64,000 bases of DNA from Effrenium voratum. Taxonomy: Eukaryota; Sar; Dinophyceae; Suessiales; Symbiodiniaceae. The notes below the pieces were generated by a model, which was not told the DNA's origin, did not search any database, and saw only the letters and a program-made list of their open reading frames with translations. This document shows, piece by piece, positions 15,811-49,609 of this stretch (the stretch's first letter is position 1; every line of letters starts with the position of its first letter). The stretch covers positions 435,001 through 499,000 of the forward strand of contig CAUJNA010002768.1 of assembly GCA_963377175.1 (NCBI GenBank), written 5' to 3'. The translations under genes and the position numbers were made by a program.

Positions 15811-16521
15811 TGTGTGTGTGTGTGTGTGTTGTGCGTGTGTTGTGTGTGTGTGTGTGGTTGTGTGTTGTGTTGTGTGTTGTGTGTGTGTGTGGTTGTGTGT
15901 TGTGTTGTGTGTTGTGTGTGTGTGTGTGTGGTTGTGTGTGTGTGTGTGGTTGTGTGTTGGGTTGTGTTGCGTTGTGTGTTGTGTTGTGTTGGGTTGTGTT
16001 GCGTTGTGTGTTGTGTTGTGTTGTGTTGTGTTGGGTTGTGTTGCGTTGTGTTGTGTGTTTGTGTGTCTCTGTGTCGCCTCTGTGTCTCTGTGTGTCTCTG
16101 TGTGTCTCTGTGTATTTCTGTGTGTCTCTGTGTGTTTCTGTGTGTCTCTGTGTGTCTCTGTGTGTCTGAGTGTCTTCTCTGTGTCTTCTCTGTGTCTTCT
16201 CTGTGTCCTCTCTGTGTCTTCTCTGTGTCTCTGTGTCGCCTCTGTGTCGCCTCTGTGTGTCTCTGTGTGTCTCTGTGTGTCTCTGTGTGTCTCTGTGTGT
16301 CTCTGTGTGTCTCTGTGTGTCTCTGTGTGTCTCTGTGTGTCTCTGTGTCTGTCTCTGTGTGTCTCTGTGTCTGTGTGTCTGTGTCTGTGTCTGCGTTTGT
16401 TTTTGGGGCCCCCACAATGATGGGTCCGCTCGCCCTCCCGGCCCCGCCCGCGCCCGCCCGCCCGCCCGCAGGCCCGCCCGCCCACCAGCACCCACCCACC
16501 AACACATACACAACACACACA

Positions 16522-16553
<32 letters not shown>

Positions 16554-16605
16554 GACACGCACACACACACACACACCCACCCGCCCGCCCGCCCGCCCGC
16601 CCGCC

Positions 16606-16665
<60 letters not shown>

Positions 16666-17640
16666 CGAACGCGCACACACGCGCACGCACACGCACACGC
16701 ACACGCGCACGCACGCACGCACACACACGCACACACCCACACCCGCACCCGCACGCACGCACGCACCCACCCACTCACGCACCGACGCAGCCACGCACCC
16801 ATGCACCCACGTACGCACGGACGCACACGCGCACATGCACCTGTTCCTGCACCTGCGCCAATGCGCATGCACATGCGCATGCGCATGCGCATACACATAC
16901 CCATACACCTACGCATACACAGAATCATGCACACACCCGCACCCACCCGCACACGCAGGCGCACACACACACAGACCCACACATACACACACATACACAC
17001 ACACACACACACCAATCACACCCACACACACACACACACGCCACACGCACACGCACACGTGCACGCGCACGCGCGCGCGCTCCCGTGCACGCGCACACCT
17101 GCACCCGGACACACGCGCACACGCACACGCGCGCACGCGCGCGCGCGCGCACCTGCAAACAAACAAACAAGCAACCAATGAATTAAGCCAACAAACAAGC
17201 ACACGCAGACAGCAGCCATCACCACACACCACGCACCACCCGCTGCACACCAGACATTCACACACACAGAGGCACACAGTGCTCACACATACGTGGACAA
17301 CCACACACACAAAAACAAGCACAAGCAACACACACAAACAAACACACACAAGCACACAAACACACAAACAAACACAAGCACACACAAGCACAAGCGCAAA
17401 CACAAACACAGACAGACACACACACACACACACGAACACACAAACACGCGCAAACACTCACAAACCAACAGACGCGCAAGTTCGCACAAATGCACAAACG
17501 CACAGAACAACAGACTCGCAAACACATGAGCGCACAAACACACAAGCGCAGAAGCGCACAATGGAACAATCGCACGAGCGCACAAACACACGAGCGAGCG
17601 TGCAAGCAAACGCACAAGCACACAAACACACAAATCTTCC
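15811..17640. repeat. 1.8-kb GT-rich to CA-rich strand-switching simple-sequence block
   Basis: From 15811 to about 16395 the + strand is GT-rich (GTGT, GTTGTGTTG, then TCTCTGTG octamers). After a CG-rich hinge (about 16405-16500) it becomes CA-rich with ACGC arrays and diverse CA-based repeats to 17640. The two arms have complementary base bias, so intrastrand pairing is possible. All long ORFs here (up to 487 aa) are repeat translations. Confidence 0.95.
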
Positions 17641-19509: not shown

Positions 19510-21310
19510 ATTCCCGAGTGGTTTCCGAGAGGGCCTTTCCCCCCCTGAGATCTTCTCCATTTTGCTCCCTAAAATCTGTTCCTCCCCTTTCCCTGTCCAG
19601 ATCCTTTCCCCTAATGCCTTTCCCCCCCAAGGTCTTCTCCCTTCTCCTCCCAAAGATCTTTTCCCCGGCCTTTCCCCCCTCTCGAGATCTTCTCCCTTTT
19701 CCTCGCTAAGATCTTTTCCCCCGTTTCCCTGTTGAGATCCTTTCCCCCTTTCCCCCCTAGACCTTTCCCCCCCTGAGATCTTCTCCCTTTTGCTCCCTAA
19801 AATATTTTCCCCCCCCTTCCCTGTCGACCCCTTTCTCTGTTGAGATCCTGTTCCCCCTTTCCCCTCTGGGAGGAAAAGGGAGAAGATCTCAGGGGGAAAG
19901 GGAGCAAAAGGATCTCAGGGGGGAAAGGCCTTTGGGGGGAAAGGGGGGAAAGGATCTCAACACGCAAGGGGGAAAAAATCTTAGGGAGGAAAAGGGAAAA
20001 GATCTCAGGAAAACAAGCCTTAGGGTGGAAAGGGGGGCAAGGATCTCAAGAGGGAAGGGGGGGGGGGGAAAAGATCTTGGGGAGGAACTCGCGAGAAGAT
20101 GTCAGGGGGGGAAAGGCCTTAGGGGGGAAAGGGGGAAAGGATCTCAACAGGGAAAGGGGGGAAAGATCTTAGGGAGGAAAAGGGAGAAGACCTTGGGGGG
20201 AAAAGACCTTAGGGGGGAAAGGGGGGAACAGGGAAAGGGGGGAAAAGATCTCAGCGAGGAAAATGGGGAAGATCTGGGGGGGGAAAGGCCTTGAAGATCT
20301 TTTCCCCCCTTTCCCTGTTGAGATCCAGTCCCCCCCTTTCCCCCCTAAGGCCTTTCCCCCCCCTCGAGATCTTCTCCCTTTTCCTCGCTAAGATCTTTTC
20401 CCCCGTTTCCCTGTTGAGATCCTTTCCCCCCTTTCCCTCCTTTCCCCCCTAAGGTCTTTTCTTCTCCCTTTTCCTCCCTAAGATCTTTTCCCCTCTCCCG
20501 GTGAGATCCTATCCCCCCTTTCCCCCCTAAGGCCTTTCCCCCCCTGAGATCTTCTCCCTTTTGCTCCCTAAAATATTTTCCTCCCCCTTCCCTGTCAAGA
20601 TCCTTTGCCCCCCAAGGCCTTTCCCCCCCCCCCCCCCCAAGATCTTCTCGCTTCTCCTCAAGATCTTCCCCCCCCCCTTCCCTGTCCAGATCCTTCCCCC
20701 CCTTTCCCCCCTAAGGCTTTTTTTCTCCTGAGATCTTTTCCCTTTTCCTCCCTAAGATCTTTTCCCCCCTTCCCTGTTGAGATCCTTTCCCCCCTTTCCC
20801 CCCTAAGGCCTTCCCCCCCCTGCGATCTTCTCCCTTTTCCTCCCTAAGATCTTTTCCCCCCTTCCCTGTTGAGATCCTTTCCCCCCTTTCCCCCCTGAGG
20901 CCTTTCCCCCCCTGAGATCTTCTCCCTTTTGCTCCCTAAAATGTGTTCCTCCCCTTTCCTTGTTGAGATCCTTTCCCCCCTTTCCCCCCTAAGGCCTTTC
21001 CCCCCCTGAGATCTTCTCGCTTTTCCTCCCTAAGATCTTTTCCCCCCCCCTTCCCGGTTGAGATCCTTTCCCCCGCTTTCCCCCCTAAGGCCTTTTCAGA
21101 TCTTCTCCCTTTTCCTCCCGAAGATCTGTTCCCCTCTTTTTTTGTGTTGAGATCCTTTCCCCCTTTCCCCCGGCCCTTCCCCCCCCCTCAGATCTTCTCC
21201 CTTTTCCTCGCGAAGATCTTAAGGCCCTTTGTCCCCTCAGACCTCTCCGACGATCTTCTCCCCAGTTCCCCCCTTAAAATCTGTTTCCCCCCTTTCCCCC
21301 GAAGATCTTT
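19510..21310. repeat. Polypyrimidine/polypurine minisatellite with inverted central segment
   Basis: Repeating modules such as CCTTTCCCCCCTAAGG, GAGATCTTCTCCCTTTTCCT and CCCTAAGATCTTTTCCCC occur on the + strand at 19510-19865 and 20295-21310. Between them (19866-20294) the same modules are inverted (purine-rich + strand). Module length is roughly 80-90 bp with many embedded AGATCT sites. No coding potential is credible. Confidence 0.95.
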
Positions 21311-34235: not shown

Positions 34236-34257
34236 AGTTAGGTGTGTGTGTGTGTGT

Positions 34258-34617
34258 GCGGAGTGACAGAATGCCCTGTCACCACCCTTTCGGTTTCGCA
34301 GCAGGGGCGTGTGGCACTCTCATCCTACCACACGCAATGAAGCTGTGGGTGAGAGTGGGAAGCAAGGCCTGATCAGCCTTGTGTACCTGCACCTTTTGAG
34401 TGATTCTGAAAGTCTTTTTGGCCCTCTTCTTTGCCGCTGTGTGTGCTTCATGTTGAACCCTGTAACGGTTTCGTCTCTAGAGGGATATCACGTGACGGCA
34501 AGCCGAACTTTCTTTTACTCGAGACTCATCGGTTGTACTCGAGACTCATCAGTTGTACTCGAAACTCATCAGTTGTACTCGAAAGATTAGCACTCTCCAT
34601 CTGGAGTTCAAGTGTGT
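34258..34617 (+). repeat. Left pseudo-LTR of the retroelement
   Basis: A 360-bp direct repeat of 46101-46460 at a constant offset of 11843 bp; no mismatch was noticed by eye. It starts GCGGAGTGACAGAATGCCCT and ends TTCAAGTGTGT. The (GT)n tract lies immediately before it. Four 20-bp tandem units (consensus TTGTACTCGAGACTCATCAG) occupy about 34512-34585. The 93-aa ORF inside occurs in both copies and is probably incidental. Confidence 0.93.
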
Positions 34618-35014
34618 ACACCCCATTCGTGGGGAATCCTCGGGTGTACCCATTGTGTGACCCCGGGCCGGCTCTGTCGGAAAATTTGACCTCAACGTGC
34701 GTATCATAGAACAGCGGAATTTCACATTTAACCAGGAACGAGGTTTCACTAAAGGGAAGAAAGCCGTCAGTTCATAGCGACGTCTCACCACAGTTGATAG
34801 CTGCCGATTTTCATTGCCTACCCTGACCATTGGTTGAACTTGTTGCTCGTTTCACTGCGGTTGTCGATTGTTGACTTGTATTTGCTTTGCCTTGTACATT
34901 TCGCTTGACCATTGCAGTTGAGGGCCGCTAACTTGCATTTGCATGGATTTGAATATTGTCGGGTCTGATTCTCTCAAGGTGGAAGTGTGCAAATTCCGAT
35001 TTAGTTGCGTCACC

Positions 35015-36514
35015 ATGTCTCGACGTGATGATCGTGATAGATCCAGGACTCGACGCAGACGTGATCGGAGTCCGTCCCCTCAAGCTCACAAAGCACGCCG
35101 ACGTGAGCACAATGACAACCAGGTCTCGGAGAACATGGATTGGAACAACTTGGTTTCATGGCAACACAACTCCGGCTACAATGCTGCTAACAACTTTCCG
35201 ATGGTGCCTACCAATTTTCAATCGACTCACAACCCCACACAGCAATTCCAATACCCGGCGATCAACTACATGATGCCGATCCCTCCTGATCCCACACCAT
35301 CCAAGTTCATGCCACCAATGATGCCACCACCGGTCACTACTTCCCAACCTACACCTTCACCTGGACCTCCTGCAGCTCTACCGGTTCGTCCTCAGAAAGC
35401 CTGGCTTACTCCCTCGCCTGACTGGACACCTGCAGACGGCATGTTTGATGTCAATCAACTCTACAACTTCAGCCTGCCCATGACTGTTGCCAACACTCCA
35501 CATGGCAACCTTCGCGACATGTCAGGCATGGATATTAGGGACGTACGCCTGGTTCAGGTTATCCACGGGGGCCTCACCAACTGGCTGCTCAGGCCGTTTG
35601 CACACGGCCGATTCGTGACGTGGGAAGGCTTTCGCACCCGCACTGAGGCCTTACTTTGGAGTACCTGCTCCAAATTACTACGAAGATCGCAGTCACTCAA
35701 CCTGCTCACCCTGGAAAAGGACCTTGCCAACACGCTGGGTCTCAACATTGATGACTTCAATCAGCGCATCAAGGTCCACGACCATTTGGCCAACCTGGTA
35801 CTTCAATTTCTTCAACAACATCACACCTCTCTCGCACCTGCTGCCCAGACCGATGACATGGTCAAGAAGTTCAATGATTTGAATCGTGCACATGAACTTC
35901 TCCAAGCTCAGTATTCCGCATCACTTCGCGCATCGACCTCGCCCACGATGACAAACCAGAAAGATGATGCAGAGTTGGTTACACCGCCACCGGTCAACCA
36001 CACACCATCCTCGTCACCTGCCAGCTCCCTTCCCACAGCCAGCGCGGCCGCCCTGGATGGCAAGTCGTTTGATAGCGTGGTGCAACCTCGGATCATGCAG
36101 TCTCTTCACGGAGTGTCGTCACCGCCGTCCAAACCGGCGGCGTCACAGTTGCTCACCATGCACAGCACGCCGGATGAAGTTGTCAAGTACTACACATGGA
36201 CCAGTGACCAACCTCGCCTTTTCCTCAAGCAAGCACCCACAACAACCACTTTGGCGTCGCTGGTTAAGTGGGCCAATCACCCGTCCCGGCTCAACGGCAA
36301 CAAGTCGTTAGATTCTATGGCGACGCAGCTTCTTCAGGCCAGGCAACGCATGCCGAAGGGCGATGCGCCCACACTCGGTGCAATGGCAGCATTATGGGGT
36401 CTTGAACCCGGGTACCTTACCAAACTCACTGAGAAGGCATTGAGTCACCTCATCGTGACCGCTCGCCTGCTTTGTGGATGGGAAGGCATCATATCGACCT
36501 TCGTTCTCATGTGA
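35015..36514 (+). CDS. Retroelement ORF1, SR-rich structural/nucleic-acid-binding-like protein
   Basis: The chosen ATG (CACCATGTCTCG) follows an AG at 35003-35004 in CGATTTAG|TTGCG; an in-frame ATG exists upstream at 34943. The 499-aa product opens with MSRRDDRDRSRTRRRRDRS, an SR/RD-rich basic segment typical of nucleic-acid binding or nuclear localisation. A Pro-rich linker follows (about residues 90-150). Two predicted globular parts come next: one containing VIHGGLTNWLLRPFAHGRF and NIDDFNQRIKVHDHLANLV, and a C-terminal part containing VVKYYTWTSDQPRLFLKQ. I do not recognise a family; a gag-like role is inferred from position. It ends 178 bp before the ORF2 start. Confidence 0.75.
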   Translation: MSRRDDRDRSRTRRRRDRSPSPQAHKARRREHNDNQVSENMDWNNLVSWQHNSGYNAANNFPMVPTNFQSTHNPTQQFQYPAINYMMPIPPDPTPSKFMPPMMPPPVTTSQPTPSPGPPAALPVRPQKAWLTPSPDWTPADGMFDVNQLYNFSLPMTVANTPHGNLRDMSGMDIRDVRLVQVIHGGLTNWLLRPFAHGRFVTWEGFRTRTEALLWSTCSKLLRRSQSLNLLTLEKDLANTLGLNIDDFNQRIKVHDHLANLVLQFLQQHHTSLAPAAQTDDMVKKFNDLNRAHELLQAQYSASLRASTSPTMTNQKDDAELVTPPPVNHTPSSSPASSLPTASAAALDGKSFDSVVQPRIMQSLHGVSSPPSKPAASQLLTMHSTPDEVVKYYTWTSDQPRLFLKQAPTTTTLASLVKWANHPSRLNGNKSLDSMATQLLQARQRMPKGDAPTLGAMAALWGLEPGYLTKLTEKALSHLIVTARLLCGWEGIISTFVLM

Positions 36515-36692
36515 GCCCGGAGCGGCAACAATGTCACGGATGAGTCCGGGTGAAAACTCGTCCGCCAAGTGTTTGCGTTGCACATGATTGATCTTGTACT
36601 TGCTTGGTCTTGCATTGCCTCTTGTGTGATTGTCTGTGATGCTTGTATTCATGTCGCCGCCTTGTGGTAGATTTCGTTGGTTGCATCTCACC

Positions 36693-39600
36693 ATGTTGGA
36701 TGAACTTCGCCGCTGCGGAATCTATGATGATGTTGCACAATGGCAGTCGCTGGACGACCTTCTGCACTCGTTGACTACATTCTCGACGTGCTGGCATTAC
36801 TGTTTCCCTGGACTACCACCACCGTCGATTCCAATTGAGGAGTACGAATCCATCACACAATTGCCGTGGCTGGGTCTCATCCTCGAGGTCTTAGTTGTGG
36901 TCCGGATAGCCCTCCAGATTCCGAATTGCGCTATGTCCAACTCTCAGCACACCGTAGCCAACAGGTACGAACTTCACAGATGTCGGTGCGCTGCCTATTT
37001 ATTGATCAGTTTCTTACAACGTCTCATTTCACAGGATCACGGCTACTTCCCGCCGTTCTTCGAAGTCCTTCACTTCTACAAGACTTCTCTCTTGTGTGAA
37101 ATCATGCACTCAACTTTCGCTGACACGCGACATCTACGCTCATTGCGGGCGCGATTTCCTGACCTCTACGACTTCATACATGATCCAGGTCATCACCAAC
37201 AACCGTGCGTCTACATTCGACTTTCCCCATGGCACACACCATACTATGTTGGGGCGACTGATCAGGATGTTCTACGTCGTGAACACTCACGCAGTCGCAA
37301 ATTTCTACAACTACTTCGTGGACGGCATGCCTTCTTTGAACCGGCGCTTCACTACTGGAAACGATCCAATACTTACTGGCTCTTCTGTGCTGTACCAGTG
37401 GAAATCAAACTTCCAGTTTCCTCGGTATGGGTTCAAGAAAGCAAATGGCAATACCTGCTACGCCCGCATCTGAATGCGCCCTGGGTACACAGAATCTTGC
37501 GCAAGGTGGGCTTCCGGGAACATCTTGTAGATTTTCGACGCCACTCGTTGTCGTCGCCCACTTCCCTCGGCTTGCACAAGCGCTTTCGACGACGACTACA
37601 TCCGGATCTCCAACGGCAACTACGACCTGACACCCTGGATGACATTCAAGCCCACTACTCGATCCTCTATCAGCTGGGATCCAATACAGGAGCGTCGTTC
37701 CAAGTCATGCGTGACCTACTGTCAGCCGCTTTCCCTCCCACTCAGCTGTACTACTTATTGCGGCTCGCAGTATTTGTCAACGAGCCCTTCCGCTCCAAGG
37801 CCCAGAAGCTCCTCGCCCAGGTACTGCGCAAACGACGGCTACAACCACCCACCACTTTAACACAGCTACTTTTGCCGCCGCTGCATGTCCAGAATTGGAA
37901 AGCTCTACTGGGCACATGGTTACAAAGCTGGATTGCTTCTCATCGGGATCTGTTCCCTTCTCTTTTCATTCCAAAGATCCGGGTTGTGGAAACTCGCAGC
38001 GCCACATTGGGCGACAGGATATACAACTATCGCACATGGCAGCGCAAATGGGCGCCTGACACATCTTTTCCGTGTCGCTGTTTGGACATCGATGATAGCC
38101 ATCTACACCGTGCACATGGTCACGCAGTAATGGTGGATGAGTTTTCTCGCATCAATGCGGACATTAACATTGAAATCATGACCGCCTCAATGAAGGATCA
38201 GTTTTTCGGTGATGTCGACTTATTGCATCAACGTTTCACCACACAACTTCGCAAACTTGCTCGCCGCTGGCATGTACATGGTTCCGGTCTGCTTTCAGAT
38301 CTACAGCCAGTTGTGTCTCAGTTAATGGATACTCATCGGACCAACCTTCAAGATCGGGCTTATTGGTCATCGACATCGTTGCAACGCACTGTGGCTTCTT
38401 TGTCTTCGTGGGTAGTCATCCCGGCGGATCATTTCCCCTCCCGCGCACATGTGATGTGCCCGTCCCTGTTTGCCATATTGATGCGGAAGACATTCTGCGC
38501 GGGGGATGTCTTCTCACTTTGCCGCGAATCTGCAGCATCCTTTCGCTCTGAAGTGGTAAACACAGTACCTTCTCTCCTACGTCAACGATATGCATGGGGC
38601 CTTCGACTTCAAGCACCGTTGCCCACAGCGCGCATCCTCCCAAAGCCGACCAAGGACTGGCAGAAAGCTCGACCCATCATCTCATTCTTTCGCACATGGG
38701 CAGCTCCCTTCCTCACGGTCTTCGGTGCACTTATATTTGAACTCACCAAGGCGGCCTTCCCCGACATTGCAGGTCAACTCTCAGTACAAGAACTTATCCA
38801 GCAGCTGTGGGAAGCACTGTCAAAAGCAGATCCTGATGAGTACATCCACCTGGTGTCGCAAGACTTGTCAGGCTTCTTCACGTCCATTCCTACGGAACGT
38901 TTCCATCAGGCGCTTCAAGTGCTTCTCCATCGCTATGATCAAGTTGTTGGCCTTCGCGGTTCCTCGCAATGGTCCGTGTACGAAGTCAAGTCAGATCATC
39001 GACGCCGTATGTTCAAAGGAAAGTGGCGCCGTCAAACCAAGATCCCTCGAATTTTTCGTGAACAAGATCTCCGGCACCTTCTGGACTTTGTCATTGACAA
39101 CAGTCACTTCGAGATCAACGGATACTTGTTCCGCCAAGAACGAGGAGTCGCTATGGGATCACCAGCCGCGCCACCGTTGTGCAATTTGGTTGCTACGGTT
39201 GAGGATTTCTTCTGGCACCGAACCATGATTTCTCTGCGGTTTTGCATGCCCGACATTGGTGTGATTTGGCATGAGCGCTACGTCGACAATCGTTTCATTC
39301 TCCTTCGAGACTCAGCCCCACACTCACCCGTGCTCATGAACTTTCTTTCCCTGGAATTTTATCGACCACCAGTGATGCTTGAGGTTCAACATGATGACAA
39401 AGTACTGGGTTACCGATGTGATTCTTCCTCCAGAACTATCACTCCACAGCTACCTGATCATCCCTCCCAAATCAAAGGAATTCGGAGTGCCAATGATCGG
39501 ATGTTCACTTATTCTTCTTGGTCTTCTCGCTCGTGGCTCATCATACGTGGTGCGCAACCGGCGGTTCAGCAACAACATGGGCTCGACGCTCTCAAACGCC

Positions 39601-39776
39601 TTTATGAGGCCAAAGGTTTTGAATCTCACCTTCTGCGGGACGTTCGCCGTCGACTTGGGACAAAATCTGCATGTGAGCTTGTCCTTTTGTCTCTTCTTGT
39701 GCATGCTTGGGACTGCTGTCGTTGCATTGCGCTTGGTTTGCATGTAGCTGGCTCAGAACTATGGCGGAATATATGA
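36693..39776 (+). CDS. Retroelement ORF2, GIY-YIG endonuclease-reverse transcriptase (Penelope-like)
   Basis: The ATG (CTCACCATG) follows GGTAG| at 36670; the frame is open from 36630. Numbering from this ATG (1027 aa), the GIY-YIG domain spans about 172-264: VYIRLSPWHTPYYVGATDQ, R-R-E-H-S at 195-199, and a catalytic-type Glu at 249 in QESKWQYLLRPHLN. A CxC motif (FPCRCLDIDD) has Cys 461 and 463. RT motif A is VSQDLSGFFTSIP with Asp 724. Motif B is RGVAMGSPAAPPLCN from 817. Motif C is RYVDNRFIL with Asp 865, where the usual second Asp is Asn. A thumb-like segment, WLIIRGAQPAVQQQHG, follows. The domain order is that of N-terminal-EN Penelope-like elements, relatives of telomerase RT. It would nick target DNA and prime reverse transcription of the element RNA. 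It overlaps ORF3 by 16 bp. Confidence 0.9.
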   Translation: MLDELRRCGIYDDVAQWQSLDDLLHSLTTFSTCWHYCFPGLPPPSIPIEEYESITQLPWLGLILEVLVVVRIALQIPNCAMSNSQHTVANRYELHRCRCAAYLLISFLQRLISQDHGYFPPFFEVLHFYKTSLLCEIMHSTFADTRHLRSLRARFPDLYDFIHDPGHHQQPCVYIRLSPWHTPYYVGATDQDVLRREHSRSRKFLQLLRGRHAFFEPALHYWKRSNTYWLFCAVPVEIKLPVSSVWVQESKWQYLLRPHLNAPWVHRILRKVGFREHLVDFRRHSLSSPTSLGLHKRFRRRLHPDLQRQLRPDTLDDIQAHYSILYQLGSNTGASFQVMRDLLSAAFPPTQLYYLLRLAVFVNEPFRSKAQKLLAQVLRKRRLQPPTTLTQLLLPPLHVQNWKALLGTWLQSWIASHRDLFPSLFIPKIRVVETRSATLGDRIYNYRTWQRKWAPDTSFPCRCLDIDDSHLHRAHGHAVMVDEFSRINADINIEIMTASMKDQFFGDVDLLHQRFTTQLRKLARRWHVHGSGLLSDLQPVVSQLMDTHRTNLQDRAYWSSTSLQRTVASLSSWVVIPADHFPSRAHVMCPSLFAILMRKTFCAGDVFSLCRESAASFRSEVVNTVPSLLRQRYAWGLRLQAPLPTARILPKPTKDWQKARPIISFFRTWAAPFLTVFGALIFELTKAAFPDIAGQLSVQELIQQLWEALSKADPDEYIHLVSQDLSGFFTSIPTERFHQALQVLLHRYDQVVGLRGSSQWSVYEVKSDHRRRMFKGKWRRQTKIPRIFREQDLRHLLDFVIDNSHFEINGYLFRQERGVAMGSPAAPPLCNLVATVEDFFWHRTMISLRFCMPDIGVIWHERYVDNRFILLRDSAPHSPVLMNFLSLEFYRPPVMLEVQHDDKVLGYRCDSSSRTITPQLPDHPSQIKGIRSANDRMFTYSSWSSRSWLIIRGAQPAVQQQHGLDALKRLYEAKGFESHLLRDVRRRLGTKSACELVLLSLLVHAWDCCRCIALGLHVAGSELWRNI

Positions 39777-41098
39777 TCACTAGCACTCTGCGTTCGGATG
39801 GATCAATACAAACAACGAGCCGCGTGACGCTCGAGCACCTCCCCAACTTCATCAACGGCAATGAGATCCAAATGTTCATCCGGACCCATGGCATAGCACA
39901 CCAGCAAAGTGTGCAATCCCACGGCTCGTCACGTGATGCACCAGCACTCACTGAGCAGCCCAGATCGCGTTCCCCCCGGTCACGAATTCCGCGGATCCAG
40001 CTCACACCGGGCCCGCAAGGGCATTCAGATGAGGAAGAAGACTGGGGTGAATGGAGGAGTGATGGCAGACACGCTCATAGTGATCAAAGGAGGCCACGTT
40101 CGCCTCCGTTTCCCCCTGCTCATGCCAGTCCTTCTGAGAACCGCATCGCGCTGGTGCCTCTCTCAGTTCGTCGGCAGGTGCCTGATTTGGGGGTTCATCG
40201 CTTCAAGCTACGCACTGGGTGTCGGATCGAGGAGATCGCCATCGAAGTGAATGACGTCCTCTACTACACCTTACCTTCGATTGCCGCCTTGGTATTCCCT
40301 GAGCCGGAGCTGTTGAAGAAATCATGGGAGTCTGTCTACAGGAGCCTCATGCCACACCGCCGCAGCATCATAGAAGATGAACAGCGGGTCATGTCCATTT
40401 CGGAGTTTCCGTTTGCTCAGCCGCCGCATGGGGTTCCGGGACGCTGGACGGCGCAAGTGGTCAAAGACATCTCGGACTACTTCCAGGTCTCTCGGCGGTC
40501 ACTACCGCAGCAACTCATCGTCCAGCTCGGCATTTGCGAGGAGAAGTGGCCATATATCAGCAGAACCACGCGGACGTTTCACCACTTCTCCGCGGACAAA
40601 AAGAACTCCCAGAAGAACCTCTTTGGGATCATCTTCTCATTTGAGCCACGCCGATTGTTGCCGGACAAGCAGCGCACTCAATCGCAGTCCACATTTTTCT
40701 GGTCCCACAACACCAACATACAGGCTGCCATGCAAATCCTGCGTGATGAGGAACTGATCCGACCTTCGAAGTGGCAAGAACACCCTTCCCCCAATCGTGA
40801 ATGCTCCAACTGGAACGAAGTTTGGTTACCTCCGATGGGATTCTACTGCAGAGGCAGCCTCCAGTCTCAGGAAGCGGCAATCCAATCTGCAGCGCAGTTC
40901 GGTGGAATCCGGACGGACCGCCCGGTGTGCATTGGTGGCTCTGCTCGTCTCCGACAACAGCATTGCACTATACCCCGCGGCGGCGTGTACGCGGACATAG
41001 CAGCCTCCCACTACTATGACTGCATTCATGCCAAGGATGGCAGGTGGAAACTAAGATCTTCGATCGCAGTGCCCAGCTACATGGGCATCTTCTGGTGA
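39761..41098 (+). CDS. Retroelement ORF3, unknown protein with possible ADP-ribosyl-transferase-like C-terminus
   Basis: The ATG (GAACTATGGCGG) lies inside the end of ORF2 after TGTAG|CTGGCTCAG|. The 445-aa product begins MAEYMITSTLRSDGSIQT. It has a basic/acidic low-complexity linker (about residues 65-125), then a folded region. Near residues 311-330 it reads TFFWSHNTNIQAAMQILRDE, followed by LPPMGFYCRGSLQS and later VCIGGSARLRQQ, IPRGGVYADIAASHYYD. The spacing 'x-H-x-T...A..IL...I.PS...G.Y' recalls the PARP/KptA-like ADP-ribosyl-transfer fold. This is a weak pattern-level resemblance and I would not name an enzyme on it. Confidence 0.7.
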   Translation: MAEYMITSTLRSDGSIQTTSRVTLEHLPNFINGNEIQMFIRTHGIAHQQSVQSHGSSRDAPALTEQPRSRSPRSRIPRIQLTPGPQGHSDEEEDWGEWRSDGRHAHSDQRRPRSPPFPPAHASPSENRIALVPLSVRRQVPDLGVHRFKLRTGCRIEEIAIEVNDVLYYTLPSIAALVFPEPELLKKSWESVYRSLMPHRRSIIEDEQRVMSISEFPFAQPPHGVPGRWTAQVVKDISDYFQVSRRSLPQQLIVQLGICEEKWPYISRTTRTFHHFSADKKNSQKNLFGIIFSFEPRRLLPDKQRTQSQSTFFWSHNTNIQAAMQILRDEELIRPSKWQEHPSPNRECSNWNEVWLPPMGFYCRGSLQSQEAAIQSAAQFGGIRTDRPVCIGGSARLRQQHCTIPRGGVYADIAASHYYDCIHAKDGRWKLRSSIAVPSYMGIFW

Positions 41099-41354
41099 AC
41101 CATGGTGGCATGCCAGTACAATAGCGTTGCTGCTGACCCGACGTGTTGTGCGCTTTGTTTTTCATGATGTACATCATGACGCCCCTCTTCCGGAAAAACG
41201 CATTGAGTTGTCCGTGGCTCATGGTTGACTTTGATATTTCCTTGTGCGGTGTTGCTTGCATGATTGGTTGTCTGCCTTCTGAATGCTTGCCGTCGCCGCT
41301 TTTAGTCATCACTGGTTGATTGAGCCCTGGTTGTCTCATCTTTCCGGAATTGTG

Positions 41355-41858
41355 ATGGATCATGGGGATCTGCTACGTGATTGTCGGCACATGCTACTCG
41401 CTATGTCATCGCAAATCAATTTACTTTTGGCTGGACTGCAGCGTCTTGAAGGCCAGCAGCGACATCCACAGCCGCCCCCACCGCCACCGATTCCGGAAGT
41501 TCACCCCCCGCCGCTGCCTCCGCCGTCCACGGCGCCGCCGTACTTGCCAGCAACATCGGTCAGACCTGACCACATGGCAACGCCGGTCACTCTTGTGGCC
41601 ACCACGGATAGCCGTGCGGAGCACCCTGCTCACGTGCGCACGGTGAGTGTTAGCACCTCCTGGGAGCACAGACGAAGGCGAAGATCTAGACATCGAGAGC
41701 CGCACCGGAGACGATCCCGCAGCCATCATCGTCGGCTACCAGACCGTCCTGTTGATGCGGTTCCCGTGGTCCGCCGTCATGCTCACACACCTAAGTATCC
41801 ACCGGCGGTCAAAGCCATGCCAGCTTGCAGACCATCCGGTCTGTCTTATGAACGGTGA
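41355..41858 (+). CDS. Retroelement ORF4, helix plus Pro-rich and SR-rich protein
   Basis: The ATG (TTGTGATGGATC) is the first after GCTTTTAG| at 41307; the frame is open from 41283. The 167-aa product has an N-terminal amphipathic helix (HGDLLRDCRHMLLAMSSQIN, LLLAGLQRLEGQQ), then a polyproline stretch, then a basic SR/RH-rich segment (RRRRRSRHREPHRRRSRS). This layout resembles ORF5, so the two may be diverged duplicates. RNA binding is plausible from composition only. Confidence 0.6.
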   Translation: MDHGDLLRDCRHMLLAMSSQINLLLAGLQRLEGQQRHPQPPPPPPIPEVHPPPLPPPSTAPPYLPATSVRPDHMATPVTLVATTDSRAEHPAHVRTVSVSTSWEHRRRRRSRHREPHRRRSRSHHRRLPDRPVDAVPVVRRHAHTPKYPPAVKAMPACRPSGLSYER

Positions 41859-41900
41859 CGGAGCAACAGCGACAAAAGTACCTCAGCGTTTGCTTCGTTC

Positions 41901-42716
41901 ATGCTTGCATGCACCGTATCTCTGTCATGCCGCAGCATTATCGCTTTGCAGCTTTGCGTGAGTTGCCCTTGTGGTTTGATTGGTTGCCATGCAGTTGTCG
42001 CTGAGTTTGTGAACAACCTGGTGGCTGTGCTCAATGTTCTTGCATCCCAAGTTGCGACAGCTTTGGACACACTGAACTTTGCCTTGATGACGGAGCGTGG
42101 TCGTCCGACAGACACGGTGGTGACCCCGAGAGCACCAAGAAACTCCAGACATGGGTTGCGGCCCCGCATCATCACGGAGCTCGCCTCCTCTGACCGATCT
42201 CGATCCCCCACACGCATTCGGGCTCGACCGGTGGACACGTCATCTACCTGGTACATACCGGCTTTGTCCCCGCCTCGAGCCGCACATCGTGATGCTAGTG
42301 AATACAATTCTGGTACTCGGCCCGAATCTGTGTTAGATCGACTGCCACCGCCTCGTCCTCTTGCTCCTTTCGCGGCACACGGTGGACGAGAACCAGGACA
42401 GACGACGCCCACGACACCGGATTCGGATTCTGATGGTTCGGTACATCCGCATCCAGGTGCCTCGTCGTTCCGGCCGTCGCCGACGGTGGTTCATGGTCCT
42501 CGGGAACTTCTACAAGAATTTACCATTGCACTTCGCAATGCATACCGTGAACCTTTCACGGCATGGACACAGGGCGAGCTGGATGAAATGGTGAGACGGA
42601 AGAAAGATAAGGATTCCAGGCCCACCTATAAGACCATTGCGCGGTTTCTTCAGAAGCCGATTGAGGAAGTCAAGCAGGCATGGAAGGTCTATCAACAACT
42701 TGAGGCTCGCAGCTAG
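41901..42716 (+). CDS. Retroelement ORF5, SR/Pro-rich protein with Myb/SANT-like C-terminus
   Basis: The first in-frame ATG is at 41901. An ATG at 42087 (MTERGRPTDTVVT) is an alternative that would follow the CAG acceptors at 41951 and 41994. The upstream part contains a helix-like segment (FVNNLVAVLNVLASQVATAL) similar in character to that of ORF4. The centre is SR/Pro-rich. The C-terminal ~50 residues read FTAWTQGELDEMVRRKKDKD then RPTYKTIARFLQKPIEEVK and QAWKVYQ. The W...E...(14-16)...T-I-A...(8)...V..AW spacing is that of Myb/SANT or related helix-turn-helix domains. DNA binding, perhaps for targeting, is inferred. Confidence 0.65.
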   Translation: MLACTVSLSCRSIIALQLCVSCPCGLIGCHAVVAEFVNNLVAVLNVLASQVATALDTLNFALMTERGRPTDTVVTPRAPRNSRHGLRPRIITELASSDRSRSPTRIRARPVDTSSTWYIPALSPPRAAHRDASEYNSGTRPESVLDRLPPPRPLAPFAAHGGREPGQTTPTTPDSDSDGSVHPHPGASSFRPSPTVVHGPRELLQEFTIALRNAYREPFTAWTQGELDEMVRRKKDKDSRPTYKTIARFLQKPIEEVKQAWKVYQQLEARS

Positions 42717-42896
42717 GAACAAGCCCGGCAAATGCAGCAGCGACCATTGATGGACCAAATGATAAGCGGCGGCGGTGTGTCCGGTTTGAGTTGTTGATCA
42801 CATGATACTCGCTTGCTTGCACGTGACTCAATCTTGCTTGTCGTGTCGCGAGATGTCGTTGACATGCAGTGATGTCTTGCCTGAGTTGCTCAAATC

Positions 42897-43466
42897 ATGT
42901 CAGAACAAGTTGTACAGACGTACATTACCTGGACCCATGGAGCGCAGCCGACGTGGTTACAATTTCATGGACCCGGGGCTCTACTCGACAGACCCATTCG
43001 GCTGACTACGTCGCCTCCGCCCCCGCCAAGTCTGCCACTGCTTCTTCCACCTCCTCCTCCACCACCACCACCACCACCGGTGATTCTACACCCCCAGTTT
43101 ATGCCCTCGGTACGCAGCCCCTCGATCTCAGCCCCTCGCGGACAATCCTGCCCTACCTCTTTGAAATCGCAGCGCACACGCCGCTCGATCTACAGCACTG
43201 ACCCTTCCCGTGATGAAGTACCACGCAGTCCAGGCCGCTCGTCCAAACGATCTCGGACAGCATCAGCTTCAGCGCCGCGGCGATCTCGACGGCCCTTTAC
43301 AGTGTTTTATTCCAAACGTGCTGGCCGTTCATCGCGATCCCCATCGGCAACATGCAAACATTACTGTCACGCCATCCTGCGCCATGGACGGAAATGTCTT
43401 TCCCCTTGTGCACGTAGACGACCAGGTCATTATCATTGCAGGTGTGCGCGACATCAAAGACAGTGA
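42897..43466 (+). CDS. Retroelement ORF6, diverged W-x-x-x-x-x-PG family N-terminus with Pro/SR-rich tail
   Basis: The ATG (CAAATCATGTCAG) opens MSEQVVQTYITWTHGAQPTW followed by LQFHGPGALLDRP. 'WLQFHGPG' aligns with WIRIYSPG, WIRIYVPG, WVKIFHPG and WVRIYTPG of ORFs 7-10, so I take it as a fifth, diverged family member. The FREW and RDW...GYQR blocks of those proteins are missing. Instead there is a polyproline stretch and an SR-rich basic region (SKRSRTASASAPRRSRRPF). The last third overlaps another open frame (43210-43599) with better coding character, so a frameshift or overlapping gene is possible. Confidence 0.5.
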   Translation: MSEQVVQTYITWTHGAQPTWLQFHGPGALLDRPIRLTTSPPPPPSLPLLLPPPPPPPPPPPVILHPQFMPSVRSPSISAPRGQSCPTSLKSQRTRRSIYSTDPSRDEVPRSPGRSSKRSRTASASAPRRSRRPFTVFYSKRAGRSSRSPSATCKHYCHAILRHGRKCLSPCARRRPGHYHCRCARHQRQ

Positions 43467-43599
43467 AAGCCAGGTGTCAGACATTTCAGACCTCGTTGAC
43501 CCGTTTCACCTTGTGTTTGAAAAGTTGCCTCGCTCCTCAGTGGATGTGTGCGGTTGGCAATGCATGTGTGTCCTTGCCGCAGATTTTCGATTGGTTTAG
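43210..43599 (+). CDS. Retroelement ORF6b, overlapping frame
   Basis: This frame is +1 relative to ORF6. Its second half, from AMDGNVFPLVHVDDQVIIIA to DISDLVDPFHLVFEKL, has a balanced acidic/hydrophobic composition typical of a folded protein, unlike the Cys/His/Arg-rich shadow in the ORF6 frame. It may be a separate small protein, or the true C-terminus of ORF6 reached by frameshift or by a sequence error. I could not decide. Confidence 0.35.
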   Translation: MMKYHAVQAARPNDLGQHQLQRRGDLDGPLQCFIPNVLAVHRDPHRQHANITVTPSCAMDGNVFPLVHVDDQVIIIAGVRDIKDSESQVSDISDLVDPFHLVFEKLPRSSVDVCGWQCMCVLAADFRLV

Positions 43600-43625
43600 C
43601 AGTCGTGCAAGCCCGTATTGCTGCT

Positions 43626-44048
43626 ATGAACCCCCAGTATTTCGAGTACCAGATCGAGAGAGGAGTGGAATGGATTCGAATTTACTCTCCGGGCATTTGG
43701 AGGCCCGTTCCTGAGGAGGCGCCAGTTCCGGACCCACTCTACGCTTCCACGTTTCGGGAGTGGCGCAGATCATATCACTTCCAAGCGTACTGGTCTGAAG
43801 ACAGCACCGGAGGCACCACAATGGATCCTATTGCCACGCCCAGTTCCTATGTGTCCTATCACGTGTGGGAGTACCGAGACTGGCAAACGCGAGGGTACCA
43901 ACGACTTGGACCTCCTGTCCAATCCATCGGACTCGCGATGCTCGCCAACGCAGACATCGAGTCCTCGGTGGGCTCGTCGGTACCTGATGGAGCGTGGCGG
44001 GAACCGTCACCGCCACCATTTCATGATCCTTGGAATGATTCGGATTGA
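43626..44048 (+). CDS. Retroelement ORF7, small-protein family member A
   Basis: The ATG (TGCTATGAACCCC) is the first in-frame one after GGTTTAG|. The 140-aa product has three shared blocks: VEWIRIYSPGIWRPV, TFREWRRSYHFQAYW plus STGGTT, and VWEYRDWQTRGYQRLGPP. The DNA word GTGGAATGGATTCGAAT is identical to one in ORF8, so duplication was recent. The C-terminus is low-complexity and acidic, ending HDPWNDSD. There is no membrane segment or signal peptide, and no known family is recognised. Confidence 0.75.
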   Translation: MNPQYFEYQIERGVEWIRIYSPGIWRPVPEEAPVPDPLYASTFREWRRSYHFQAYWSEDSTGGTTMDPIATPSSYVSYHVWEYRDWQTRGYQRLGPPVQSIGLAMLANADIESSVGSSVPDGAWREPSPPPFHDPWNDSD

Positions 44049-44193
44049 CACTTGAGTTGCATGTTGGACAAAGATGCGGTTGTGCGTGCTTTGTATGTGA
44101 GTTCTCATTGGGTTGTCTTGCTTGGTGCTGTGCATGTCGTCTCTATGTGTCCGCCGCTCTCTGTGATAACTTTGAGCAGCTTGTCGGGTTGAA

Positions 44194-44637
44194 ATGTTCA
44201 ATAGTACGGTGCAGGGTGCAGCACGATGGGTCCTACCTCGCTATTTTGACTATGACATCGTCAATGGACCAGCAGGAACGAGGGTGGAATGGATTCGAAT
44301 CTATGTGCCGGGTCAGTGGCATCCAGTAGCCCCTGACACCCTGGGACCGGCCCCGGATGACCCGACCGCCTATCGGGAATGGCGCAAGGTCTACCACTTC
44401 GAAGTGTACTGGCCCAGGGAAAGCACGGGCGGCACAACTATAGGCACGGCTCTGCAACCGGTATCCTACGCCACCTTCTACACTTGGTATTACAGGGACT
44501 GGGTCACCAGGGGGTACCAACGCCTGGGTCGTCCACATCCCAGCATAGCGAGGCCAGTTTTCGCTTCGGGTGCACCGGACCTCATGTATGCTGGAATGAC
44601 CTCCTCTTCGGCATCATCTAATTCACATGATAGCTGA
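44194..44637 (+). CDS. Retroelement ORF8, small-protein family member B
   Basis: The ATG (TTGAAATGTTC) follows TTTGAGCAG|. The 147-aa product carries RVEWIRIYVPGQWHPV, YREWRKVYHFEVYWPR, ESTGGTT and YYRDWVTRGYQRLGRP. It is the closest relative of ORF7, sharing the STGGTT segment missing from ORFs 9 and 10. Ser-rich C-terminus (TSSSASSNSHDS). Function unknown. Confidence 0.75.
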   Translation: MFNSTVQGAARWVLPRYFDYDIVNGPAGTRVEWIRIYVPGQWHPVAPDTLGPAPDDPTAYREWRKVYHFEVYWPRESTGGTTIGTALQPVSYATFYTWYYRDWVTRGYQRLGRPHPSIARPVFASGAPDLMYAGMTSSSASSNSHDS

Positions 44638-44792
44638 TGCCCGTCCTCGCCTCCCTGGAGAGTCTGACTGTGATGTTGGCGCCGCACAGTGCTACAAAAG
44701 TGGTCTTTTGCATTTTGATAGTTGATTTGCTTTCACTCGTTGTTGTCTGCAGCCGTACACCTATCAACTTGTCTTTCCGTGGTTGCGTTGTC

Positions 44793-45374
44793 ATGCCGTG
44801 GCTGGAATGGTGCCCGGACCCTCAACAACCAGATGCCCAGTGGGTCAAGATCTTTCATCCGGGACCATGGACGCCTCAAGAAGAACATGATGCTCCACCT
44901 CCTCCGCATACTTTCAGAGAATGGCGGGAGTTCTATGCTCCCAACCAGGACTCAGTCGAAGGGCAAGTCCAAGTCACTACGTGGTACAAGCGTGACTGGG
45001 CCACAGAGGGCTATCGGAGAATCGCTGCTCCTCACGCTGGTCATGAATTTGATTCCATGTATCCCTCCGATCACCATAACGTGGCCACGCAGTCTGCGGC
45101 ATTGAGTATGTCACCGGAGCTGTTAGACGCGATTCTCAGGTCCTCGGATGCGGCTGATTTCTCCACTGAAGAACTGACTCGTCTCCAGGAGGGGATTTCT
45201 CAACAACTGACGGCCCGCGCACGTCTGACCTCCCATCCTCATCAACCAGTACGTGCATCGCGTGGCAACACACCATCGGAGACGATTGGGGTCTCCGACC
45301 CCTACAGGCCCGTGAATCCGTCCGACAGCGGCCAAGACAAGATGAGGCCCGTCTTCGAGCTGACTGAAGACTAG
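44793..45374 (+). CDS. Retroelement ORF9, small-protein family member C
   Basis: The chosen ATG (TTGTCATGCCGTGG) gives MPWLEWCPDPQQPDAQWVK. It follows a T/G-rich tract ending TGTCTGCAG|; the frame is open from 44637. The 193-aa product has WVKIFHPGPWTPQ, TFREWREFYAP and WYKRDWATEGYRRIAAP, then an extra helical C-terminus (SMSPELLDAILRSSDAADF, EELTRLQEGISQQL) absent from the other copies. It is a family member with an added oligomerisation-type tail, which is inferred. Confidence 0.72.
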   Translation: MPWLEWCPDPQQPDAQWVKIFHPGPWTPQEEHDAPPPPHTFREWREFYAPNQDSVEGQVQVTTWYKRDWATEGYRRIAAPHAGHEFDSMYPSDHHNVATQSAALSMSPELLDAILRSSDAADFSTEELTRLQEGISQQLTARARLTSHPHQPVRASRGNTPSETIGVSDPYRPVNPSDSGQDKMRPVFELTED

Positions 45375-45524
45375 CCTTGCATGAGCAGCGCAGCGTACAA
45401 AATAAGGGTGGCCTCTACACTTGCATGATCTTGCTTTGCTGTTGTTTGAACATGGTTGTGCATGGTGCTTGTTCATCTACCAGCTGGATCGGAGCCCGCG
45501 ACCATCCTTGCCTCTTGCCTCGAC

Positions 45525-46025
45525 ATGGACATCGATGATTCCAAGCAGCATCCATGGCTCGAATATTCGGTCTGGCATGATCAGGAGTGGGTGCGGATAT
45601 ACACTCCGGGACAACCTCAACGATGGCACCGTGGTGACGCCGTACCTGATCTACCTGAAAACTCTTTTCGTGAATGGCAGCGGGTGACGGATCCCGAAGC
45701 GCCAGTCCAGGCATGGGACATCCGTGACTGGCAACACCAAGGGTACCAGCGCATTCTGTCTCGGATTGAGTCCTTCGCAACTCACTATTCACATGATCAG
45801 ACTCTTGGTCAAGGTCGGAACTCCGATGCCGTTCAAGTTGAGGAGACCTTCACCTATGCCACTCCGTTTTCTCATGGTGATCGCCCGGCTGCTTCGCAGA
45901 TCGCTTCAGTCCTCTATGGCGACACTCGCAATGCTCAACGTTGTGATCTTTCGTTCCCGTCTTCTGAGCGGTTTAGGGCAGTGTCTCGCTCCCCTCGCCG
46001 TGGTGGATATTTTGGTCAACGATAG
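45525..46025 (+). CDS. Retroelement ORF10, small-protein family member D
   Basis: The ATG (CTCGACATGGAC) gives MDIDDSKQHPWLEYSVWHDQ. It follows TCTACCAG|CTGGATCGGAG|. The 166-aa product has WVRIYTPGQPQRW, SFREWQRVTDPEA and WDIRDWQHQGYQRIL, then a Ser/Arg-rich C-terminus ending SRSPRRGGYFGQR. It is the last ORF before the 3' hairpin and the right pseudo-LTR. Confidence 0.72.
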   Translation: MDIDDSKQHPWLEYSVWHDQEWVRIYTPGQPQRWHRGDAVPDLPENSFREWQRVTDPEAPVQAWDIRDWQHQGYQRILSRIESFATHYSHDQTLGQGRNSDAVQVEETFTYATPFSHGDRPAASQIASVLYGDTRNAQRCDLSFPSSERFRAVSRSPRRGGYFGQR

Positions 46026-46074
46026 TGATTTGAGTTTGAGCATGTGATCTTCCTGCAGGAGAAAAGAGAAACCT

Positions 46075-46093
46075 CGCCCCTCGTAGAGGGGCG
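46075..46093 (+). other. Perfect 8-bp stem, 3-nt loop hairpin at the right pseudo-LTR
   Basis: CGCCCCTC-GTA-GAGGGGCG forms an 8-bp perfect stem 8 bases before the right pseudo-LTR. The left copy lacks it. It could be a 3' RNA structure recognised by the RT or a processing signal. Confidence 0.6.
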
Positions 46094-46100
46094 TGTGTGT

Positions 46101-46454
46101 GCGGAGTGACAGAATGCCCTGTCACCACCCTTTCGGTTTCGCAGCAGGGGCGTGTGGCACTCTCATCCTACCACACGCAATGAAGCTGTGGGTGAGAGTG
46201 GGAAGCAAGGCCTGATCAGCCTTGTGTACCTGCACCTTTTGAGTGATTCTGAAAGTCTTTTTGGCCCTCTTCTTTGCCGCTGTGTGTGCTTCATGTTGAA
46301 CCCTGTAACGGTTTCGTCTCTAGAGGGATATCACGTGACGGCAAGCCGAACTTTCTTTTACTCGAGACTCATCGGTTGTACTCGAGACTCATCAGTTGTA
46401 CTCGAAACTCATCAGTTGTACTCGAAAGATTAGCACTCTCCATCTGGAGTTCAA

Positions 46455-46460
<6 letters not shown>
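46101..46460 (+). repeat. Right pseudo-LTR of the retroelement
   Basis: Direct repeat of 34258-34617 including the four 20-bp tandem units (~46355-46428). It runs into GTGTGTGTGTTTGTGTGTGT host-like microsatellite sequence, whereas the left copy continues into the element's 5' region. Confidence 0.93.
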
Positions 46461-46486
<26 letters not shown>

Positions 46487-46499
46487 TTGCAGCTGGGAG

Positions 46500-47838: not shown

Positions 47839-48515
47839 TATAGTATCGGGCTAGCAGATAGAATATATATTTTTAGAGTAAATGAAAATGCACATTTCAA
47901 AAGTATATTCAAAACATGAGTTAGAATAAATATGAAAAAATACAGTTAGAATATTAAAATAAAATAAAATAGAATATATCAAACAAAAAGAAAACAACAA
48001 ATATAATATTTCAAAATAAGGGTTTCTGCTATGAACAACTACTCTGCGATAAATGTCCTAGCTGCTAGCCCGTTGCTAGATATTTCTATATGCGGCTTTC
48101 AGCAAACCATGTGGGTCCCATGATTTTCCATTTGGGTCCGTCTCTCTTTCAAGGGTATATGCAAAACCAAACGGAGACCAACCGTTTTGAGGGGTCCCCC
48201 TAAGAAAGACACACGTGATTTACCAGAGGAATGCATGGCTTCTCCTTTTTTTCGGAGCTCAAATGCTCAGCCCGACGGGCCATGCCCCTCTCCCACAAAC
48301 AGATAGAATATTTCATATACAGCAAATTCTCCAGAGACTCAAGCGGTACCAAGCCCAAAAAATTAATGAACACCATTTGGGGGGGCACAAATAGAATATT
48401 TGCTTTTGCAAACCTTCATCAGGTGATTCATCGTATGCATAAATTACTAAATATACAGATAGTAAATATTGGATTGCTTATGTTTTGAGGGTACCCCAGT
48501 ATATTCCAACAAGGG

Positions 48516-49505
48516 GTGGCCTTCCTTTCCCTTTAACCCAACCACAAACGGCACCGAGCCCAAAATATGCATGAACACCATGGAAGCGCACAGTTAGAAT
48601 ACTTGTTTTTGGCAAAACTTCATCAGACGCATAATAAAAGATATAGAGATAGTAAATGTTGATTTGTTTATTCTTTGAGGGTCCAAAAGCGTGGCCTTCC
48701 TTTCCCTTTAATCCAACCCCAAACGGTACCGAGCCCAAAATACGAATGAACACCATGGGGTGGCACAGTTAGCATATTTGTTTGTGGCAAAACTTCATCA
48801 GGTGATGAAGCGTAGGCATAATAAAAGATATAGAGAGAGTAAATATTGTTTTGTTTATTCTTTGAGGGTCCAAAAGCGTGGCCTTCCCTTCCCTTTAGCC
48901 CAACCCCAAGCGATACCGACCCGAAGCTATACATGAACACCATGGGGGGGCACAGATAGAATATTTGTTTTTGGGCCGGAAAACCTTCATCAGGCCACAC
49001 TTTAATATGTATATATACATATATATATATATAATAGAGAGAGATAGCAAGCATTGGATGGCTTATTTTTTAAGGGCACTTCGGTACACTCCAACAAGGG
49101 GTGGCCTTCCTTTCCCTTTGACCCAACCCCAAACGGTACCGAGCCCAAAATACAAATGAACACATGGGGTGGCACAGTTAGAATATGTGTTGTTGGCAAA
49201 ACTTCATCACGTGATGAATCAATCGTAGGCACAATGAAAGATATAGAGATAGTAAATATTGTTGTGTTTATTCTTTGAGGGTCCAAAAGCGTGGCCTTCC
49301 TTTCACTTTAGCCCAACCCCAAACGATACCGAGCCGAAGCTATACATGAACACCATGGGGGGCACAGATAGAATATTTGTTTTTGGGCCGGAAAACCTTC
49401 ATCAGGCCACACTTTAATATATATATATATAATAGAGAGAGATAGCAAGCATTGGATGGCTTATTTTTTAAGGGCACTTCAGTACACTCCAACAAGGGGT
49501 GGCAC
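48516..49505. repeat. Tandem ~175-220-bp repeats inside the TIR element
   Basis: The word GTGGCCTTCCTTTCCCTTT (or a close variant) recurs at about 48513, 48691, 48879, 49100 and 49291. Each is followed by CCCAACCCCAAACGGTACCG-like sequence, an ATGAACACCATGGGG segment, a CTTCATCAGGTGATG-like segment and TTTATTCTTTGAGGGTCC. A longer variant with TTGGGCCGGAAAACCTTCAT occurs twice (about 48965 and 49380). Short ORFs here repeat one another and are artefacts. Confidence 0.85.
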
Positions 49506-49609
49506 TTCAGTCCAGCAAAGCTACCCTCTCTTCTTGTAGTCAAAAAACCTTCCAGGATACGTTTTTAAATACATAATTTTGCAGTTCAAATCCTTGCTAC
49601 ACTTTACTA

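Follow-up and report, generated by a model that had tools for sequence, protein, structure and literature searches.

How could one insertion flanked by GT microsatellite come to carry ten genes, and do these genes belong to a single mobile element? The question is raised by a 12.2-kb unit in the 64,000 nucleotides that we analysed from an Effrenium voratum assembly (GCA_963377175.1, contig CAUJNA010002768.1, 435,001 to 499,000; hereafter the window, to which all coordinates refer). A first-pass annotation had proposed a Penelope-like element (PLE) with several open reading frames (ORFs), in which a GIY-YIG endonuclease lies N-terminal to the reverse transcriptase (RT) and which is bounded by pseudo-long terminal repeats (pLTRs). 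Our analysis supports this proposal: relatives of the additional ORFs are found together with ORF2 and ORF3 on other contigs and in fused gene models, and telomerases, of which PLEs are mobile relatives, are the nearest solved structures to the RT model. In our view the unit is very probably a recently inserted, possibly autonomous PLE retrotransposon with an N-terminal endonuclease, from a family that has about nine accessory genes beside the GIY-YIG/RT protein. As a gene-rich variant of the N-terminal-endonuclease PLEs it is real and probably new.

The limits of the element can be read directly from the window. The terminal direct repeats named in the first-pass annotation are present on the plus strand, at 34250-34617 and 46093-46460, are 368 bp long and are 100% identical; the left pLTR includes a 20-bp tandem repeat of 3.3 copies (34516-34582), and the right one has the same sequence. 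The GT microsatellite described on both sides is also present, as (GT)8 at 34242-34257, overlapping the start of the left pLTR, and as (GT)7 TT (GT)8 at 46455-46486 (tracts 46455-46468 and 46471-46486), neither with an assigned strand. GT tracts thus stand at both ends of the unit, since the left repeat starts within the first tract and the right one enters the second, and a target-site duplication is not definable because the element ends lie in GT-tract DNA. The identity of the two pLTRs suggests a young insertion. No further part of the window matched the element by blastn. The interior between the repeats measures 11,475 bp, has a G+C content of 51-56% compared with 41-50% in neighbouring windows, and carries ten ORFs, all on the plus strand. 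Counting ORFs of 150 aa or longer, the plus strand between the repeats encodes 3862 aa and the minus strand 374 aa, whereas 200 first-order Markov sequences averaged 676 aa and did not exceed 1939 aa. Adjoining the right pLTR is a plus-strand hairpin (46075-46093) with an 8-bp stem, CGCCCCTC-GTA-GAGGGGCG, whose stability (z -3.10) was equalled in one of 200 shuffles; that it may mark the RNA recognised by ORF2 is a guess.

The order GIY-YIG, CxC and RT in one frame, claimed from the start, holds for ORF2 (36639-39776, plus strand; start as in protein P0001). Its endonuclease signature (37203-37484) comprises CVYI at 37206, YYVG at 37242, R-R-E-H at 37275, the Glu of VQES at 37437 and PHLN at 37464, and precedes the RT motifs (38637-39413), which read LPKPTKDWQKARPIIS, QDLSGFFTSIP, RGVAMGSP, RYVDN and VMLEVQHDDKVLGY, with DLSGFFTSIP at 38862 and AMGSP at 39150. 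The intervening CxC is CRC at 38073, and CRC, CTC or CCC occupies this place in all ten alignment rows that have residues there (2 of the 12 rows are gapped). Besides its motifs, the GIY-YIG region has 12 residues that are invariant in six relatives. A profile of it found I-TevI as best match among PDB sequences with a statistically weak E of 0.47, and Pfam GIY_YIG_2 matched, again weakly (E 0.042), one of the five GIY-YIG segments searched, which was not that of the window. For the predicted RT fold of ORF2, telomerases are the closest solved structures and provide the top 18 Foldseek chains. When the complete ORF2 model was searched by fold in two ways, no GIY-YIG chain occurred among the 50 matches listed each time; the RT fills these lists. 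RT motif C (39276-39296) is RYVDN and not YVDD: Asn replaces the second catalytic Asp throughout alignment A1, where all 12 rows, whether from close or distant relatives, read VDN. ORF2 relatives fall into 20 clusters at 70-96% identity and nine at 25-28%, and an internal tree, built from these relatives, only separates 18 closely grouped rows from 9 that are distant. At 25-28% identity, P0021-P0029 represent four more subfamilies of related RT proteins; three of these clusters have 26-49 members, and GIY-YIG was seen wherever the N-terminus is present.

The remaining nine ORFs, also on the plus strand, would encode the accessory proteins. ORF1 (35015-36514, frame open from 34922) has an N-terminus rich in serine and arginine (SR-rich), a proline-rich middle and a conserved C-terminal half (alignment A7). 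The SR-rich character assigned to it by the first-pass annotation was confirmed: its start, MSRRDDRDRSRTRRRRDRSPSP, is also found in P0071, the representative of a 190-member cluster, and relatives have the same start and conserve the middle and end as well. ORF3 (39761-41098) encodes a conserved orphan protein whose homology can be traced to 44-47% identity (P0061); its predicted structure has a mean predicted local distance difference test (pLDDT) score of 35.6 and gave nothing at E<=1e-3 in Foldseek. The frame of ORF3 is open from 39677 and overlaps the end of ORF2, its ATG lies upstream of the ORF2 stop (39774-39776) in a different frame, and its second Met codon overlaps this stop (ATGA). 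Because ORF3 starts inside the end of ORF2 and seven relatives are predicted as one protein, its expression by coupling to, or fusion with, ORF2 is likely, judging from the sequence. A resemblance of its C-terminal half to ADP-ribosyltransferases was an impression by eye alone and is not claimed. ORF4 (41355-41858, start as in P0143) is proline- and SR-rich and has a 37-aa match of 75% in one gene model fused to ORF5 (P0143). ORF5 (41901-42716) is SR-rich and of unsure exact start; its C-terminal approximately 70 aa are strongly conserved (alignment A6) and look SANT/Myb-like, to the eye only. ORF6 (42897-43466), a proline- and serine-rich open frame, is the least certain of the ten. ORF7 (43626-44048), ORF8 (44194-44637), ORF9 (44793-45374; start as in P0162, frame open from 44634) and ORF10 (45462-46025) encode four small proteins that are tandem paralogues: all six blastp pairs score, from E 6e-35 (ORF7 with ORF8) to 8e-6, and 14 columns of the family alignment are invariant across 14 rows. 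None of the accessory proteins tested had a credible relative in Pfam or PDB, and profiles searched against PDB sequences at E<=1 found no match for ORF1, ORF3 and ORF5 and one for the ORF7-10 family (a ribosomal protein, E 0.81). We claim no motif common to the intergenic gaps that might serve the individual ORFs as trans-splice acceptor or promoter. TTGCTT occurs in seven of the eight gaps; in 3 of 200 shuffles the most frequent 6-mer was just as widespread. For the best 7-mer (in 4 gaps) and 8-mer (in 3 gaps), the shuffles that did as well numbered 82 and 122 of 200, respectively.

Are these ORFs shared by a family or peculiar to one insertion? ORF2, ORF3 and a chimera of parts of ORF1, ORF5, ORF9 and ORF10 served as search queries; ORF4, ORF6, ORF7 and ORF8 were not queries. 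The chimera matched 197 clusters, of which 120 were used. In total, 187 listed proteins were mapped onto the element; the resulting counts include joined models, are lower bounds, and should not be read as copy numbers of one genome. Recurrence elsewhere was observed for ORF1 (at least 68 clusters and 354 members), ORF2 (at least 35 and 577, with 170 members from distant relatives), ORF3 (at least 40 and 313), ORF5 (at least 22 and 183), ORF9 (at least 20 and 258) and ORF10 (at least 10 and 148), whereas ORF4, ORF7 and ORF8 are each represented by one cluster among the matches listed. The first-pass annotation had named copies made only of ORF2 and pLTRs as the finding that would speak against it; as far as proteins can tell, the data do not bear this out, given that ORF1, ORF3, ORF5, ORF9 and ORF10 each have between at least 148 and at least 354 members. 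No relatives were confirmed in viral contigs or GTDB contigs, and 21 sampled stretches (202 kb) of the window's assembly, a coverage too low to say much, matched neither the element nor any of its relatives.

These counts bear on the best surviving alternative, in which the PLE proper is compact (pLTRs with ORF1-ORF2-ORF3) and ORF4-ORF10 are unrelated host genes caught between two pLTRs, be it in the window copy or in one sublineage. Such capture has a precedent, as Penelope elements of the rotifer Adineta vaga take up long host DNA between pLTRs (excerpt of PMC3846280), and ORF4-ORF10 are without a link to known retroelement proteins. However, the abundance of ORF5, ORF9 and ORF10 and their presence on contigs with ORF1-3, for example those of 11,790, 21,511, 46,054 and 91,378 bp (contigs are told apart by their exact size), make this explanation improbable. 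An ancient capture that has since become a component of the family is conceivable and would merge with our preferred explanation.

We also considered two or more distinct mobile elements, nested or abutting by chance, such as an ORF2-ORF3 PLE and a separate ORF1 or ORF5-ORF10 element, each amplified alone. Linkage and order of the ORFs elsewhere, part of which we observed, bear on this reading. At least two different ORFs lie on 35 of 148 contigs. The 11,790-bp contig carries ORF1 and ORF9, whose outer ends are 10.4 kb apart in the window, the 21,511-bp contig ORF1, ORF3 and ORF5, and the 46,054-bp contig a joined ORF2-3 model and ORF9. Ten gene models fuse different ORFs and nine of them fuse window neighbours (2-3, 4-5, 8-9): the end of ORF2 is fused to the first ORF3 residues in seven (P0003, P0020, P0043, P0065, P0066, P0067 and P0068), while ORF4-ORF5 (P0143), ORF8-ORF9 (P0185) and ORF1-ORF9 (P0117) are joined in a single model each. 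Chance nesting would agree with the sampling of ORFs through cluster representatives only and with two pairing controls that do not discriminate. Same-contig pairs comprised 38 of different ORFs and 8 of the same ORF, that is 83% against 77% expected from label frequencies, and the divergence ranks of the 38 pairs were uncorrelated (rho 0.08; 1482 of 5000 permutations as high). Because of these controls, two ORFs on one long contig may come from different copies, and since long contigs may carry several copies, the claim of one element depends on the short contigs and the joined models. Still, a single pair of identical repeats surrounds all ORFs, the element has no match elsewhere in the window, and the 11,790-bp contig and the ORF4-5, ORF8-9 and ORF1-9 models speak for a single unit. 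We hold chance nesting to be improbable, slightly more so than host-gene capture. An LTR (long terminal repeat) retrotransposon or endogenous retrovirus-like element, which the identical direct repeats and the gag-like SR-rich ORF1 might suggest, is rejected as scarcely credible because a Pfam search at E<=1 assigned none of the ten ORFs to an integrase, RNase H or protease family (divergent versions could escape) and because the RT fold is closest to telomerase, in addition to the GIY-YIG motifs and GT-tract ends.

Besides the two pairing controls, several observations weigh against our preferred explanation. Microsatellite targeting has its whole basis in one insertion in GT tracts. A Pfam search of the window's ORF2 protein found neither GIY-YIG nor RT, and the GIY-YIG part of the predicted structure is poor (block means 31-43). 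The VDN form of motif C could reduce the activity of the RT. ORF6 is an open frame without homologue evidence, and ORF4, ORF7 and ORF8 have little. Finally, the evidence on other copies comes from their proteins and from the contigs that carry these.

An inferred cycle covers the activity of the element, its promoter, the way its proteins are expressed, the DNA that it nicks and the functions of all accessory proteins. A promoter in the pLTR would drive a long RNA from which several proteins are made, ORF3 perhaps through its junction with ORF2. By analogy with the PLE cycle (excerpts of PMC11167929 and PMC3846280), the RT protein would bind this RNA, and the pLTRs would arise from a tandem arrangement. 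The GIY-YIG domain of the ORF2 protein would nick GT/CA microsatellites, and its telomerase-like RT would prime complementary DNA at the nick (target-primed reverse transcription); such repeats would be the natural target, and pairing between them and the GT-rich element ends is conceivable. As a best guess, the products of the SR-rich ORF1, of ORF3 and ORF5 and of the ORF7-10 family would bind the RNA, condense or coat it, protect it or deliver it, or else guide integration; packaging of the RNA is a further possible role.

Other features of the window and its assembly deserve mention. Large blocks of simple repeats and minisatellites lie at 1012-2179, 5795-6651, 15811-17631 and 19616-21220, and include long TG/CA stretches into which elements of this kind could also insert. 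A tandem array of approximately 187-bp units, 65-94% alike, follows shortly after the right end of the element (48340-49508). A plus-strand ORF at 17894-18742 matches a Zc3h12a-like NYN ribonuclease domain just above the cut-off (E 4.5e-05) and, more weakly, PRORP. The window has three short interspersed repeats in common with scaffold L017 (G000:C80:1-10000) at 76-79% identity. Across 21 sampled stretches the G+C content of the assembly ranges from 0.27 to 0.65, and the assembly may be mixed and contain more than one organism.

If our preferred explanation is true, a PLE that bears its own endonuclease and about nine accessory genes is a second, independent route to gene-rich PLEs, the plan of one or two proteins is no limit for the class, and several orphan protein families become tied to retrotransposition. 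PLEs in the TSAR group (telonemids, stramenopiles, alveolates and rhizarians) were unreported before Ectocarpus according to a 2025 paper (excerpt of PMC12477816); if the host is the dinoflagellate, the element would be a PLE in alveolates too. Because the pLTRs are identical and the family is large, one can test whether the element is active, which targets it prefers and whether it needs each of the accessory proteins. We are evenly divided on a bolder reading, namely a virus-like branch of many-gene PLEs with an endonuclease-bearing, ten-gene genome built independently of the rotifer Terminons, a gag-like SR protein, a fourfold-amplified new protein family and an RT lineage in which VDN is fixed for VDD.

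How does the element compare with known PLEs? Endonuclease before RT, CxC and a microsatellite bias define the Chlamys/Naiad clade, the N-terminal-endonuclease PLEs reportedly described by Craig et al. 2021, whose members usually have a few kb and one main ORF. The window element shares with them the GIY-YIG before the RT, the CxC between, the pLTRs and a GT/CA tract at the insertion, but differs in its 12.2 kb and ten ORFs; in domain order, as far as its sequence tells, it fits this group. Of the features of PLEs in general it has a telomerase-related RT, a GIY-YIG domain (by motifs, with weak statistics) and pLTRs (in one copy). In a literature search, mostly without subscription papers, none of the matches listed reported a PLE that has several ORFs and also encodes an endonuclease. 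According to excerpts of the papers cited below, PLEs were long seen as small elements that typically measure 4-6 kb and have one or two ORFs, a view broken by the Terminons, which are telomeric, lack an endonuclease and reach 40 kb (PMC6431247). Like Penelope and Poseidon, the window element combines pLTRs, GIY-YIG and RT and probably uses target-primed reverse transcription, whereas those elements are compact, have a single ORF and carry the endonuclease after the RT (PMC11167929, PMC3846280). Unlike Terminons, it is accompanied by no pair of TTTAGGG or TTAGGG copies on either strand anywhere in the window, and Rfam found no hammerhead ribozyme; of a loose hammerhead pattern the window has 4 occurrences, among them two on the minus strand of the pLTRs, where chance predicts 5.84 for the window, and we claim no ribozyme. 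With the Terminons, Athena-based giant PLEs of rotifer telomeres, it shares a telomerase-like RT in a large multi-gene unit with accessory ORFs, but whereas Terminons are endonuclease-deficient, telomeric and hammerhead-linked (PMC6431247, PMC12477314), the window element carries its own endonuclease within the RT protein.
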